A stretch of 64,000 nt of DNA from Fulvivirga ligni (GTDB taxonomy: Bacteria; Bacteroidota; Bacteroidia; Cytophagales; Cyclobacteriaceae). Position 1 is the first letter of the stretch. Each line of letters begins with the position of its first letter. Below the pieces are notes generated by a model. That model had not been told where the DNA came from and ran no database searches. It was given only the letters and a program-made list of their open reading frames with translations. Where the stretch lies: NCBI RefSeq assembly GCF_021389935.1, contig NZ_CP089979.1, positions 787,001 to 851,000 of the forward strand, written 5' to 3'. Below, piece by piece: positions 12,752 to 16,987 of the stretch. The position numbers and the translations under genes are program-made.

Positions 12752-13468
12752 TCATTTTGACAAAATAGCTTTAATTCTGGCTCTTGCTTGATGAAAAATT
12801 ATTGCATATTCTAAACGAAAAGGTACGCCTTCCAAGCCAACCAAATCTATAATTATATCCGCTTTGCTCGCTGTAATAAGAATGAGCTCAGCCTTGTTAT
12901 GTTGCCTACTCTCACGGAGCACAGCCCCCAAAATGGAGTGCCATGGAACTATAGCCTTTTTATAGAGTATGCCCTTTGCATTTATATTTAAGGAATTGCT
13001 TTTGTCTTTATACTCGTAAACGATGACGGTCAGGGCAATAATCATGAAGAGGTCAATTATAACTATTAATGGCTCAAGTGGAGCGATAAAAAACATTGGC
13101 AGGGTGAAAAGAAGTATTAGAATGGGCACTAATAGGTAGAATAAAAATATAATTTTTGATTTACCTATCTGAACGCTATTCGCAGAGGGCTTCACAGGTA
13201 AACTTTCCTCAACTGGCTTAAACGGAATAACTGTACAACTATAATTCGAATCTATTACTGTTTTTGTCCGACCATGTTTAGAGAAGCCATAACCGCTTAG
13301 TTTCTCATCATAAATTTTCTCAAGCGCCGGTCGATCAATACTTAACTTATCGCAATCCTCCTTAAAGTCAGGATAGTCATTAACCAGCCCACAAATAACC
13401 CCTCGGTAAGGATCAAATTTACTGTGACTACACGAAGTACAATATCTGGAGTATGAGGCTTTGTTCAT
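12752..13468 (-). CDS. Hypothetical zinc-ribbon-like membrane protein
   Basis: This 238-residue protein is not recognised. The N-terminal ~60 residues carry CTSCSH...GVICGLVNDYPDFKEDCDKL, a four-cysteine pattern that could bind zinc or iron. A stretch rich in polar residues follows. Two adjacent helices (residues ~108-150: IIFLFYLLVPILILLFTLPMFFIAPLEPLIVIIDLFMIIALTVIVY) are followed by a small beta domain of about 80 residues. This layout resembles small sensor or membrane-tethered regulatory proteins with unknown roles. It is divergent from the Lgt-like gene 95 bases away, with no visible operon partner. Confidence 0.6.
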   Translation of the reverse strand: MNKASYSRYCTSCSHSKFDPYRGVICGLVNDYPDFKEDCDKLSIDRPALEKIYDEKLSGYGFSKHGRTKTVIDSNYSCTVIPFKPVEESLPVKPSANSVQIGKSKIIFLFYLLVPILILLFTLPMFFIAPLEPLIVIIDLFMIIALTVIVYEYKDKSNSLNINAKGILYKKAIVPWHSILGAVLRESRQHNKAELILITASKADIIIDLVGLEGVPFRLEYAIIFHQARARIKAILSK

Positions 13469-13563: not shown

Positions 13564-14325
13564 TTGCAAATTCCTTTTAAGCCTGTTGTTTCTGGCATTC
13601 CAATTAATGTGCATCTCATTCTAGAATATCTGGCCTTTTTTCTGGCTTTCAGATACTATTTGTTTTTAAGGAAGCGCTCATCAGATACCATTCCTACCGG
13701 CAATCGACTAAGTATAATTCTTGGTGCTACCATTGGAGCTCTTGTTGGTTCTCGCTTAATGGGTTTTTTAGAAAATCCTTTTATAGACTTCTCATGGCAG
13801 AATATTATTATCATCTGGAATTTAAAAACCATCATGGGTGGTTTATTTGGAGGCCTCTTGGGCGTGGAGTCAGCTAAAAAACTGATTGGTGAAAAGCAGC
13901 GGTCAGGTGATCTATTCACCCTACCCATTATTTTGGGCATTTTCATTGGCCGAATTGGTTGTTTTCTGTCTGGTACGGATGAGTTTACCTATGGCACTCA
14001 AACATCATTCTTCACCGGGATGGACCTTGGGGATGGAATAATGAGGCACCCAATAGCATTATATGAGCTTATATTTCTACTGGTGCTTTTTATTATTCTT
14101 AGGTCGGCTCTAAAAAAACAAAAGCGGGAAAATGGTATGATCTTCCAATGGTTTATGATCAGCTACTTCGCATTTCGTTTTTTAATAGAATTCATTAAAC
14201 CGAATGTATTTTTTATCCTTGGATTAAGTAGTATTCAATGGTTATGTATAATTTGCCTGATATACTATATAAAAACAATCGCCAAACCTCTGAAATATGC
14301 CTACAAGAAAATACACCTATTATGA
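13564..14325 (+). CDS. Lgt-like (prolipoprotein diacylglyceryl transferase family) membrane protein with altered active site
   Basis: This 253-residue polytopic protein starts at TTG (13564) right after an in-frame stop; no upstream ATG exists. Lgt features visible: GSRLMGFL, MGGLFGGLLG (91-100), GRIGCFLSGTDE (129-140), RHPIALYE (171-178), FRFLIEFIKP (204-213) and a final GLSSIQWLCI helix. Compared with the E. coli enzyme, the catalytic HGG is MGG here (Met91). The signature Asn after RIG is Cys133 and the next Asn is Ser136. The equivalents of Arg143, Arg239 and Glu243 are kept (Arg130, Arg205, Glu209). It may still bind phosphatidylglycerol yet do different chemistry. Its last 29 bases overlap a radical SAM gene, so the two are coupled. 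It is probably not the housekeeping lgt. Confidence 0.78.
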   Translation: MQIPFKPVVSGIPINVHLILEYLAFFLAFRYYLFLRKRSSDTIPTGNRLSIILGATIGALVGSRLMGFLENPFIDFSWQNIIIIWNLKTIMGGLFGGLLGVESAKKLIGEKQRSGDLFTLPIILGIFIGRIGCFLSGTDEFTYGTQTSFFTGMDLGDGIMRHPIALYELIFLLVLFIILRSALKKQKRENGMIFQWFMISYFAFRFLIEFIKPNVFFILGLSSIQWLCIICLIYYIKTIAKPLKYAYKKIHLL

Positions 14326-15691
14326 TTTTACACTAAGCCTATGTCCGGAATGCCTCAAGCGGGTAGATGCTAAAATCGTATTTGATGAAGGCAAGGTATT
14401 TATGCTTAAAAGGTGTCCGGAGCACGGTAATTCAAAAGTGTTGATAGCTGATGATATAGAATACTATAAAAACATCCGTAACTATAATAAACCGTCGGAG
14501 ACGCCTTATCAGTTTAATACCAAGACTCATTACGGCTGCCCGTATGATTGTGGCTTATGCCCGGACCATGAGCAGCATTCTTGTCTAACAGTGGTAGAAG
14601 TAACTGACCGTTGTAATCTAAGTTGCCCAACTTGCTATGCCGGCTCTTCTCCTTCTTATGGCAGACATAGAACTTTGGACGAAGTGAAAGCCATGCTTGA
14701 TGCGGTAGTTAGAAATGAAAAAGAACCCGATGTGATTCAGATCAGTGGCGGTGAGCCAACCATCCATCCTCAATTTTTTGAAATATTAGACTACGCCAAA
14801 ACATTGCCCATCAGACACCTGATGCTTAATACCAATGGAGTGGCCATTGCCAAAGATTTTGAATTCGCCAAAAGGCTGGCCACTTACACTCCCGATTTTG
14901 AAGTATACCTTCAGTTCGACTCCTTTAAAGACGATGTATTACAAACGCTTAGAGGAGCAGACCTTTGGAAAGTGCGTGAGCAAGCCTTGGCACATTTGAA
15001 TGAATTGAATCTGTCTACCACCCTGGTAGTGACTTTGCAAAAGGGTCTTAATGACGATGAAATTGGCAAAACCATAGATTATGCACTGAAGCAAAAATGC
15101 GTTCGTGGAGTCACTTTCCAACCTACCCAAATTGCTGGCCGATTGGAAAATTTCAATACTGACACTGACAGGATTACCCTCACTGAGGTGAGAAGGAAAA
15201 TATTAGAACAGTCACCAGTTTTTAATGAAGACGACCTGATACCTGTACCTTGCAATCCGGATGCTTTAGCCATGGGTTATGCACTAAAATTGGGTGGTGA
15301 GGTATTTCCTTTGACCCGATATATTAATCCTGCCGACTTGCTGGATAATAGTAAAAATACCATTGTATATGAACAGGACGAGCATTTACAGGGAAAAATG
15401 ATAGAGCTGTTTAGTACTGGTAATTCTGTAGATGCCGCTACCGAAAAATTACACTCTATTCTCTGCTGCCTGCCGCAGATTGAGGCACCATCTTTAGGCT
15501 ATGATAATCTCTTCAGAATTATTATTATGCAGTTTATTGACGCTCACAATTTTGATGTACGATCAATTAAGAAATCATGTGTACACATTGTGAATAAAGA
15601 CAATCAAATTATTCCTTTCGAAACCATGAACCTATTCTATAGAGATGATAAAAAGGAATACCTCAAAAAACTTCAAAACCAGGAAATATGA
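14297..15691 (+). CDS. Cysteine-rich radical SAM enzyme (tetraether lipid synthase/MJ0619-like group)
   Basis: This 464-residue protein has the radical SAM cluster motif CNLSCPTC (Cys106, 110, 113). The SAM site ISGGEPTIHP and LNTNGV follow. Ahead of the core are two more cysteine groups: CPECL...CPEHG (Cys16, 19, 40, His43) and YGCPYDCGLCPDHEQHSC (Cys81, 85, 88, 96). C-terminal blocks are CC (near 390), MQFIDAHNFDVRSIKKSCVHIV and IIPFETMNLFYRD. This arrangement recalls the MJ0619/Tes group, whose archaeal member joins lipid tails to form tetraethers and whose bacterial members are mostly untested. The neighbouring Lgt-like lipid enzyme supports a lipid or lipoprotein substrate. The start overlaps that gene by 29 bases, and the stop overlaps the next gene's start (ATGA). 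Confidence 0.82.
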   Translation: MPTRKYTYYDFTLSLCPECLKRVDAKIVFDEGKVFMLKRCPEHGNSKVLIADDIEYYKNIRNYNKPSETPYQFNTKTHYGCPYDCGLCPDHEQHSCLTVVEVTDRCNLSCPTCYAGSSPSYGRHRTLDEVKAMLDAVVRNEKEPDVIQISGGEPTIHPQFFEILDYAKTLPIRHLMLNTNGVAIAKDFEFAKRLATYTPDFEVYLQFDSFKDDVLQTLRGADLWKVREQALAHLNELNLSTTLVVTLQKGLNDDEIGKTIDYALKQKCVRGVTFQPTQIAGRLENFNTDTDRITLTEVRRKILEQSPVFNEDDLIPVPCNPDALAMGYALKLGGEVFPLTRYINPADLLDNSKNTIVYEQDEHLQGKMIELFSTGNSVDAATEKLHSILCCLPQIEAPSLGYDNLFRIIIMQFIDAHNFDVRSIKKSCVHIVNKDNQIIPFETMNLFYRDDKKEYLKKLQNQEI

Positions 15692-15888
15692 TACTTGCAG
15701 ATAATATGAATTTAGATGGCCTCGTGATATTCTTCTTATTAATCATTTTCGGACCGCCCTTACTATTGGTTTTAATCGGATTTGCCATTAAAAGCAACAG
15801 TGCCAAAGGAGCCAAAGTGCTATTTATAATGGCAGTCACCTATTTGCTTATTGCCGGTGGTATTTGCGGTACTTTGATGATGGGGTGA
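15688..15888 (+). CDS. Small two-helix membrane protein, third gene of the Lgt-like/radical SAM operon
   Basis: This 66-residue protein has two hydrophobic helices, LVIFFLLIIFGPPLLLVLIGFAI and AKVLFIMAVTYLLIAGGICGTLM, joined by a short basic loop KSNSAKGAK. Its ATG overlaps the stop of the radical SAM gene (ATGA), so translation is coupled. No family is recognised. It could be a membrane anchor or subunit for the enzyme, or a helper for presenting a lipid substrate. The coding call rests on the overlap, the clean transmembrane pattern and a stop soon before the next convergent gene. Confidence 0.7.
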   Translation: MILADNMNLDGLVIFFLLIIFGPPLLLVLIGFAIKSNSAKGAKVLFIMAVTYLLIAGGICGTLMMG

Positions 15889-15926: not shown

Positions 15927-16274
15927 TTATTTCTTCCTAAACAACTTGTATGACAAGGCGCCTAGTACTAAACCTACCGGCAGCACTACCCACCCAGGGA
16001 AAATGATCATAAGGATTAATGAAACTACAAATATCAGAGAAAGAGAGATTATTAATCGGTTAGATTCTTCTTCATCCTTAGCATGAACCTTTTGTCTTCT
16101 GTCTTGCACCAAACTTTGAATAATTTCTCTTCCCAATGTCTCAGGAATTCCCTCATCTTCCATAAACGCAATAATATCTGGCGCAGAAAATCCTTTTCTT
16201 CTTAATCTGTCTGCCATTAGTAAACCCTTTTTTCTAAGTTCACTCTCTGTTAATTCATACTCTTGTTTTTCCAT
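15927..16274 (-). CDS. Small membrane protein with helical N-terminal domain
   Basis: This 115-residue protein is not recognised. The N-terminal ~70 residues are charged and helical (LTESELRKKGLLMADRLRRKGFSAPDIIAFMEDEGIPE), with the feel of a small three-helix or UBA-like binding unit. Two adjacent helices (residues 74-110: LIISLSLIFVVSLILMIIFPGWVVLPVGLVLGALSY) and a basic tail FRKK follow. It lies five bases behind the stop of the dipeptidase gene's coordinates and downstream of it on the same strand, so the two are probably cotranscribed. Confidence 0.65.
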   Translation of the reverse strand: MEKQEYELTESELRKKGLLMADRLRRKGFSAPDIIAFMEDEGIPETLGREIIQSLVQDRRQKVHAKDEEESNRLIISLSLIFVVSLILMIIFPGWVVLPVGLVLGALSYKLFRKK

Positions 16275-16279
16275 TTTTG

Positions 16280-16987
16280 TTAATCACACTCCGTTTTAAA
16301 GTTAGATATCTTGTAACTACTACTTCCTTTGTAGTTATAATGCCACCATTCTGTTCTTATAGCATTGAAGCCGAATGCCTCCATCATGGATTTGAAAAGC
16401 TTTCTATTAATTATCACCTGCTCTGGTAAATCCTTATAAGCATGGTGAGCCTCCTCACCAAAATGATCAAAGCCGGTTCCCATATCTAATTCTTTTCCTT
16501 CATGGTCAACCAGCGTAATGTCTACAGCTCCACCTCTATTATGAATGGAGCCGGTAGTATTAGGATTAGCCACGTAACGAGCATCTGGATAGATCTTCCA
16601 CATGGCTTTCTGCACATCTAACGGTCTGTAGCAATCAAAAAATTTGATATGATAACCCATGGTAGCTAACGAGTCGTTTACTTTTATAAGTGCGTCTGCC
16701 ACTTCTTGACGGATCATGCAGTCCGGGCAATCATATACCGTCTTTTTTAGAAAGTTATCTTCTGTGGCATATTTCATATCATAAAAAAAGCCGTTGGCAT
16801 AATCTTTCATCACCACAAATGCTGTATCTGCAATGGGCTCGCGATCAGGAATCTCTTCCATAACTTGCTTTGATTCAGCCATCACCAGGGAATCTTGTTT
16901 TTCCGTTTCTTTATGCTCAGCCTTCTGAGTATCACAAGCAAACAATGCACTAAAGCAGATTACGATGATCAATTTTTTATAAACCAT
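16280..16987 (-). CDS. D-Ala-D-Ala dipeptidase (VanX/DdpX, M15D) lipoprotein
   Basis: This 235-residue protein has a lipoprotein signal peptide, MVYKKLIIVICFSALFAC. M15 zinc-peptidase motifs are clear: IHNRGGAVDITL (the SxHxxGxAxD His and Asp ligands, with a preceding GS) and EWWHYNY (catalytic Glu and His ligand). Also seen are FFDCYRPLDVQKAMW, with the family Arg, and the N-terminal DMKYATEDNFLKKTVYD. Such enzymes cleave D-Ala-D-Ala, recycling peptidoglycan dipeptide or, in VanX, giving glycopeptide tolerance. Periplasmic location fits a recycling role. The stop of the DUF2306 gene overlaps its start by 19 bases, suggesting one operon with the small membrane protein downstream. There are no vanA/vanH partners, so resistance is unlikely. 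Confidence 0.9.
   Translation of the reverse strand: MVYKKLIIVICFSALFACDTQKAEHKETEKQDSLVMAESKQVMEEIPDREPIADTAFVVMKDYANGFFYDMKYATEDNFLKKTVYDCPDCMIRQEVADALIKVNDSLATMGYHIKFFDCYRPLDVQKAMWKIYPDARYVANPNTTGSIHNRGGAVDITLVDHEGKELDMGTGFDHFGEEAHHAYKDLPEQVIINRKLFKSMMEAFGFNAIRTEWWHYNYKGSSSYKISNFKTECD

Follow-up and report, generated by a model that had tools for sequence, protein, structure and literature searches.

What an Lgt-like membrane protein, a radical S-adenosylmethionine (SAM) enzyme and a very small membrane protein could accomplish together is the question raised by three overlapping genes of Fulvivirga ligni (Bacteroidota). They are located in a window of 64,000 nucleotides (assembly GCF_021389935.1, contig NZ_CP089979.1, positions 787,001 to 851,000 of the forward strand), which is the whole stretch of DNA analysed and whose first letter is position 1. 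The Lgt-like gene (13564..14325, + strand; 253 residues, TTG start), coding for an integral membrane protein, is followed by a gene for a Tes/TrsS-like radical SAM protein (14297..15691, +; 464 residues), and by a gene for a two-helix membrane microprotein of 66 residues (15688..15888, +), the candidate lipid acceptor. The new observation is a signature at the end of the microprotein, with an invariant cysteine, found behind the radical SAM gene. The common theme comprises a lipid pocket of the Lgt type, a hydrogen-abstracting enzyme of the Tes type and a membrane-protein thiol at the predicted outer face, and its simplest joint reading is a transfer of lipid to the thiol combined with radical chemistry on the chains. 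Lipid modification by the trio appears likely; the order of the steps and the product are what we infer beyond it.

That the three genes belong together, far more than chance would allow, is indicated by their arrangement and by their conservation. An earlier note, made from the sequence alone, described overlaps of 29 bases between the Lgt-like and radical SAM frames and of the ATGA type between the radical SAM and microprotein frames, and both are confirmed by the coordinates of the open reading frames (ORFs). Since the trio is flanked by ORFs on the opposite strand (12752-13468 and 15927-16274), the transcription unit likely consists of these three genes only, as judged from the sequence. 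The TTG start of the Lgt-like ORF is backed by an alignment of 43 homologues, the consensus of which opens with MxIPFEP, including an invariant P4. In a set of loci made of the best 80 of 556 relatives, the Lgt-like gene occurs in all 80 (truncated in L046, where the locus ends), tblastn detects a homologue of the small protein in 76, and the Lgt-like and radical SAM frames overlap in 55, by 11 bases in 48 loci, 20 bases in 4 and 29 bases in 3. When the neighbours were clustered (ORFs of at least 110 residues), only the Lgt and radical SAM families were found in 80/80 loci. A fourth conserved operon partner was considered and set aside, the next neighbour families recurring in just 13-51 of the 80 loci; some of them, inspected by eye, we take to be LepA, an FtsX-like permease and RbfA, and their recurrence seems by eye to reflect a shared chromosomal position. 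Six loci (L035, L040, L046, L050, L059 and L098) have genes intervening between those for the Lgt-like and radical SAM proteins; these intervening genes are taken for insertions because they differ between loci, save for a pair shared by L046 and L050. This pair, located on the opposite strand of two flavobacterial loci (4283-5701 in L046, 4314-5693 in L050), encodes a protein of 335 residues and another of 129 or 116 residues; the larger begins MKSPFTGKEMTLQIEKS and may be something like a zinc-finger antitoxin-type protein.

With a close radical SAM orthologue in 5/15 genomes of the genus and in 7/58 genomes searched as relatives (the genome of F. ligni being included in both counts), the module is patchy. 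Its two enzymes travel together. A survey of 395 Bacteroidota genomes, F. ligni included, was performed with thresholds of E<=1e-30 for the radical SAM protein (NF045646) and E<=1e-29 for the Lgt-like protein, and yielded the former in 34 genomes and the latter in 32, i.e., both in 31, the Lgt-like protein only in 1, the radical SAM protein only in 3, and neither in 360 (Fisher p 1.7e-41, relatedness not being corrected for). The conservation of the trio across Bacteroidota, on which the earlier note had made its proposal depend, is thus borne out by the 80 loci as well as by the survey. Two of the three genomes with the radical SAM protein only (G123 and G356) possess Tes-like proteins retaining Tyr459, with no Lgt-like match and no credible microprotein, and in the third (G152) a weaker Lgt-like gene (1.2e-14) sits in a full triad. 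In G326, the Lgt-like and radical SAM genes lie on different contigs, and the latter is followed by a microprotein bearing the signature. The Lgt matches of six further genomes are weak (3e-11 to 7.5e-13), and none of these genomes yields a radical SAM match at E<=1e-30.

The microprotein passes no Pfam or NCBIfam family cut-off, and its single significant match in its own genome is itself. In an alignment of 77 copies, i.e., the window's own and those of the 76/80 loci with a tblastn homologue, a cysteine at the end of helix 2 and a glycine at position -2 of this cysteine are present in 77/77. In the window, the cysteine is Cys60 (codon at 15865..15867, +), within the motif G-G-I-C-G. The 66-residue two-helix protein of the earlier note is therefore confirmed, and the invariant C-terminal cysteine, absent from that note, has to be added to its description. 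From a K/R loop, the end of the protein proceeds through the last helix and a G/S-x-Cys to a short tail, which leaves six residues between Cys60 and the C-terminus of the window's protein; the N-terminal lipobox signal of bacterial lipoproteins is lacking. Among 36 tails, 31 have G, S or A at position -2, and position -1 is not confined to small residues. The mean number of K/R residues amounts to 4.5 in the loop before helix 2 and to 0.27 at the N-terminus, the tail containing none; in 76/77 microproteins, no other segment is as positive as the loop. According to the positive-inside rule, this basic loop places the cysteine outside, and hence its predicted location, derived from sequence, is the periplasmic face, on the same side as the active site of Lgt, which is stated in passages of PMC4728403 to face the periplasm.

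The signature was defined as a Cys located 2-20 residues from the end, preceded by a hydrophobic 15-mer with K/R before the 15-mer. An ORF with this signature follows the radical SAM gene within 700 bases in 80/80 loci, as against 10/211 of the remaining ORF ends in these loci (Fisher p 5e-61, a value which overstates independence because the loci are related), with one such ORF in 45 loci, two in 30 and three in 5. In a second set of 18 mostly diverged loci, the signature was recognized in 17 (15 by script, L165 in a long ORF and L167 by eye), L149 being the sole locus of this set devoid of a credible signature microprotein. For 30 loci from the genome survey, the script finds the signature in 24, including the window's own locus (L131), it was seen by eye in L138, and for L115 and L116 it is present in L145 and L146, which extend these two loci; L144 is cut by a contig end, and in L117 (Tes-like) and L128 (G091) no credible signature microprotein was found. 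In distant clades, the small proteins range from 57 to 151 residues with the same ending, which in L165 and L167 forms the end of a longer ORF. All 46 small proteins compared all against all with phmmer fall into one cluster, in a set of tiny hydrophobic proteins where such links mean little. The filter errs in both directions: it missed real cases whose ends are fused or very short (L138, L165 and L167), and it passed ORFs judged to be chance, such as two frames inside the L149 radical SAM gene and, with a looser filter, one 60-residue ORF near the Tes-like L152, two ORFs near L147, which is also Tes-like, two beside the G074 Lgt gene and one beside the G091 Lgt gene. The five loci examined from the genomes with weak Lgt matches (L201-L205) gave only ORFs taken for chance. 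The largest microprotein set was seen in L155 (1918-3027), where four tandem distinct small membrane proteins of 91, 93, 87 and 88 residues stand behind the radical SAM gene, each of them with a helix and G[FA]SxC at its end.

Small, fast-evolving and often tandem proteins with an invariant C-terminal cysteine, encoded beside a radical SAM gene, have the look of precursor peptides of ribosomally synthesized and post-translationally modified peptides. The radical SAM protein might accordingly modify the microprotein itself, e.g., by a thioether at the cysteine, with the Lgt-like protein anchoring or processing the microprotein. The family to which the enzyme belongs makes this very unlikely. 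Its top NCBIfam model is TrsS (NF045646; 327.8 bits over residues 12-453, under the cut-off of 490), followed by 288.5 bits with Tes (NF045702, under the cut-off of 450), whereas no peptide-maturase model gives more than 58.9 bits; the Pfam scan reveals no SPASM domain, and the cysteine lies in a membrane helix, at the predicted outer face, far from a cytosolic enzyme. An assignment to the peptide maturases was thus set aside on family scores, and the grouping with peptide-modifying families that the earlier note had held to be fatal to its proposal is not observed.

The Tes-like character assigned to the enzyme in the same note is well founded, since, among solved structures, Tes (7TOL) is the nearest in sequence, with E 1.5e-69 and an alignment that covers residues 11-319 and 400-454. 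The protein, which carries a Zn_ribbon_HMPTM domain, contains the rubredoxin motif of Tes, CX2CX20CX2H, as C16X2C19X20C40X2H43 (Cys in 31/31 aligned rows, His in 30/31), the N-terminal [Fe4S4] ligands C81/C85/C88/H91, invariant in 32 orthologues, and the radical SAM motif CX3CX2C, C106-C110-C113 (14612..14635, +), with Cys in 31/31 aligned homologues; M411 aligns with the labile ligand Met439 of Tes. The rubredoxin motif, the cluster ligands and the labile Met439 of Tes are taken from passages of PMC9433317. Four other cysteines (C319, C390, C391 and C428) are invariant in the 32 orthologues, and the C-terminal cluster, to judge from the alignment, looks rewired. In a tree of 31 proteins, a branch with a support of 88/83 (moderate, the program flagging long branches) separates 26 triad-type rows from the TrsS-plus-methyltransferase and Tes-like rows; the 26 rows include L128/G091 and L125/G326, in which the Lgt-like gene is on another contig. 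None of the 395 Bacteroidota genomes reaches the TrsS cut-off of NF045646.

The Lgt-like protein could in principle be an ordinary extra lipoprotein transferase acting on N-terminal lipoboxes, with accidental neighbours, and its match to PF01790 (92.7 bits, cut-off 24.9) and its fold would agree with such a role. A model by AlphaFold (pLDDT 77.1, 43 sequences) has E. coli Lgt 5azb as its sole Foldseek match with E <= 0.001 (E 3.8e-5, TMq 0.65). The Lgt equivalog TIGR00544 (NCBIfam lgt) scores 47.3 bits, under its cut-off of 118.9. The host genome, of 6.52 Mb in a single contig, possesses four PF01790 genes, and two paralogues (L001 and L002) already have the catalytic His and Asn in place, so that, together with the loss of these two residues in the trio's own protein and the linkage and co-occurrence of the trio, outside the phylum too, an ordinary Lgt appears exceedingly improbable and was set aside. 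The third paralogue, L003 (1465-2271; G000:C1:2484390-2485097), represents another non-canonical class of Lgt, with Tyr instead of His103 (FYG replacing the HGG-type site), Cys instead of Asn146, and no radical SAM ORF listed within its locus of 3.7 kb.

The active site was compared in 23 Lgt-like proteins, 20 of them encoded in the same locus as a triad-type radical SAM gene; the others are those of G091 and G326, where this gene is on another contig, and that of G074, where there is none. The change of catalytic residues announced by the earlier note is evident: His103 is replaced in all 23 (in the window's protein by Met91 according to the multiple alignment, or by Phe95 in a pairwise HMMER alignment), the Asn146 position is Cys in 23/23 (Cys133 in the window's protein), and the HGGL site has become [KRNT][TS][IV]xGG[LFI] in 23/23. 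Arg143 (R130) and Arg239 (R205), invariant in 43 sequences, are retained in all 23, as are the His196 position and, as Glu or Asp, the Glu243 position (E209). In terms of sequence, then, the subfamily retains the arginines of the lipid pocket and loses the known thiol-activating residue. In E. coli, the variants H103A/N/Q/R/Y of Lgt do not complement, nor do those of R239 and E243 (passages of PMC4728403); the N146A variant is inactive, and activation of the cysteine thiol is presumed to be the task of His103 (passages of PMC8689077).

Lipid binding without thiol alkylation, as the loss of His103/Asn146 and the conservation of R143/R239 would imply, leads to another explanation. The radical SAM enzyme would act on free membrane phospholipids, coupling or modifying their chains as Tes does, the Lgt-like protein would be an altered phosphatidylglycerol-binding partner presenting or remodelling the lipid, and the microprotein would be a small subunit, its cysteine serving as a thiol hydrogen donor or having a redox or structural role. 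According to parts of PMC9433317, Tes binds lipids whatever the head group, and in parts of PMC8941075 Zeng et al. propose lipid coupling for the bacterial Tes homologues. What this explanation, which we hold to be doubtful, leaves unaccounted for is the duplication of the microprotein, up to three copies per locus, and the lipobox-like n-h-Cys layout.

The reading we favour, tentatively and with somewhat less than even confidence, is a membrane-lipid modification module in which the Lgt without His lipidates the cysteine of the microprotein and the Tes-like enzyme acts on the lipid chains. Once inserted, the microprotein would have its basic loop on the inner side and its C-terminal cysteine at the periplasmic face; with its lipidation-like cysteine, it is the likely acceptor. 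The Lgt-like protein would bind phosphatidylglycerol, as Lgt does, and move diacylglyceryl or a related lipid onto the cysteine by a chemistry independent of His103. In line with its family, the radical SAM enzyme would abstract hydrogen from a saturated chain of a lipid either bound to the cysteine already or still to be placed on it, to yield a C-C or C-S bond. A radical modification of a membrane lipid or of a lipid-anchored substrate, as the earlier note proposed, would thereby be accomplished.

Several observations weigh against this proposal. His103 and Asn146, both required in E. coli Lgt, are both replaced, and therefore a thiol alkylation via the known mechanism is unlikely. The acceptor thiol may be activated in some other way, with the invariant Cys133 as a candidate; alternatively, the Lgt-like protein may only bind lipid and not be a transferase at all. 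The missing His103 is the weak link, and hence the less than even confidence expressed above and the weight left to an action on free phospholipids. Lgt, moreover, works outside, and the radical SAM enzyme is expected inside. Within the latter, the N-terminal cluster motif is absent in three actinomycete triads and in L153, the M411 position is Met in only 19/31 rows, three of the four Tes cysteines of the aligned C-terminal stretch are replaced, and Tyr459 of Tes corresponds to Ile431, with Tyr in 2/31 rows (L117 and L152); its AlphaFold model is poor (pLDDT 51.7), so that the C-terminal cysteines cannot be placed. Passages of PMC9433317 report that Tes stays active as Y459F and Y459L. Among 25 loci inspected, some extra copies of the microprotein have no cysteine (L041, L057 and L094). 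Finally, G074 is the sole genome with the Lgt-like protein only, devoid of a radical SAM match, and G091 has both enzymes on separate contigs, with no credible signature microprotein nearby.

Outside Bacteroidota, the evidence comes from plasmid records only. Much diverged trios occur on three actinomycete replicons, from M. branderi, M. avium and Nonomuraea, with radical SAM proteins 30.5-31.5% identical to the window's protein over residues 1-331 and microproteins ending in GGLCTGLNP, VGVCTGLNP, AGYCTGLNP or AGICTGINP plus a few residues. Searched against 72,556 plasmid records (E<=1e-15), the Lgt-like protein of L145 has four matches, which are the same four records matched by the M. branderi radical SAM protein (E<=1e-40); six further plasmid records, in which the radical SAM match is more distant, gave no Lgt-like match to the L145 query. 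On haloarchaeal plasmids (two of five records examined) and on a plasmid of M. vanbaalenii, a related radical SAM gene stands beside a methyltransferase gene, with no annotated Lgt in these stretches. In L162-L164 (haloarchaeal and Mycolicibacterium plasmids), the radical SAM gene is directly followed by the methyltransferase gene, which looks like a separate TrsS-type pair.

Within Bacteroidota, two diverged loci contain additional genes which hint at a longer pathway. The stretch that separates the radical SAM gene from the Lgt-like gene encodes an ICMT/PEMT-family methyltransferase in L145 (6383-6997) and L151 (4784-5377), accompanied in L151 (5373-5858) by a DUF4395 membrane protein identified by its Pfam match, a similar protein being seen by eye in L145. 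Eukaryotic members of the ICMT family methylate lipidated C-terminal cysteines, and the presence of this family in the two loci speaks for the reading favoured above. A bolder scheme, unlikely as a whole, would consist of a second bacterial pathway of protein lipidation, at the C-terminus, in which the Lgt without His would diacylglycerylate the cysteine and the Tes-class enzyme would weld the acyl chains together or to a lipid of the opposing leaflet. The resulting microprotein would have an anchor that spans the membrane or is macrocyclic, and it may be finished in some lineages by the ICMT-family enzyme, a step which, if true, would parallel eukaryotic CAAX processing. Downstream of the trio in the window, a D-Ala-D-Ala dipeptidase family protein (PF01427) encoded on the opposite strand (16280-16987) is probably unrelated.

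No functional description of the trio was found in the open-licence literature, where absence is not proof. In passages of PMC7641849, the terms of the combination occur separately, and TrsS appears as a table entry in one review (part of PMC13188914). When bacterial homologues of Tes were reported in 2022, no substrate had been proven for them (passages of PMC8941075 and PMC9433317), and their activity was still unconfirmed according to part of a 2025 paper (PMC11868695). In this respect, the trio supplies one branch of the bacterial Tes homologues with a partner enzyme, a candidate acceptor and one testable residue. The module, which spans Flavobacteria-type bacteria to mycobacteria, probably makes a novel modified lipid or lipid-anchored protein; if so, Bacteroidota and some actinomycetes would hold a chemistry of lipids or lipoproteins that has gone unrecognised. 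Either way, Tes-like scores of bacterial genes should not be taken as evidence for membrane-spanning lipids unless the trio context has been checked.

Compared with known systems, the radical SAM protein shares with Tes (GDGT-MAS, MJ0619, PDB 7TOL; NF045702) the rubredoxin, the N-terminal cluster, the radical SAM motifs and the Met439 position, but remains under the Tes cut-off and differs by the changed cysteines of the C-terminal cluster and by Ile in place of Tyr459; in contrast to the Tes-like rows L117 and L152, it is linked to Lgt-like and microprotein genes. TrsS (NF045646) is its best NCBIfam model, but it scores below the cut-off, and the plasmid relatives of haloarchaea and M. vanbaalenii adjoin a methyltransferase instead of an Lgt. 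The Lgt-like protein resembles Lgt (PF01790; PDB 5AZB) in its fold and in the Arg143, Arg239, Glu243 and His196 positions, and departs from it by the loss of His103, the replacement of Asn146 by Cys and the altered HGGL site. Pseudarthrobacter single-cell genomes contain a stretch of about 3.5 kb with radical SAM and Lgt genes in three of four strains, missing in one, which a passage of a 2025 paper (PMC12010503) mentions without interpretation, small protein or function; this pair is set beside the trio by its description, not by sequence. The microprotein can be compared with the MYXO-CTERM/myxosortase system (TraA, M. xanthus), which also combines a C-terminal helix with an invariant cysteine and for which lipidation by an Lgt-like enzyme is predicted by its authors (passages of PMC11980579, where no radical SAM enzyme is mentioned). 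There, the cysteine is followed by the helix and an Arg-rich end, whereas in the microprotein a K/R loop is followed by the helix, the cysteine and a short tail.

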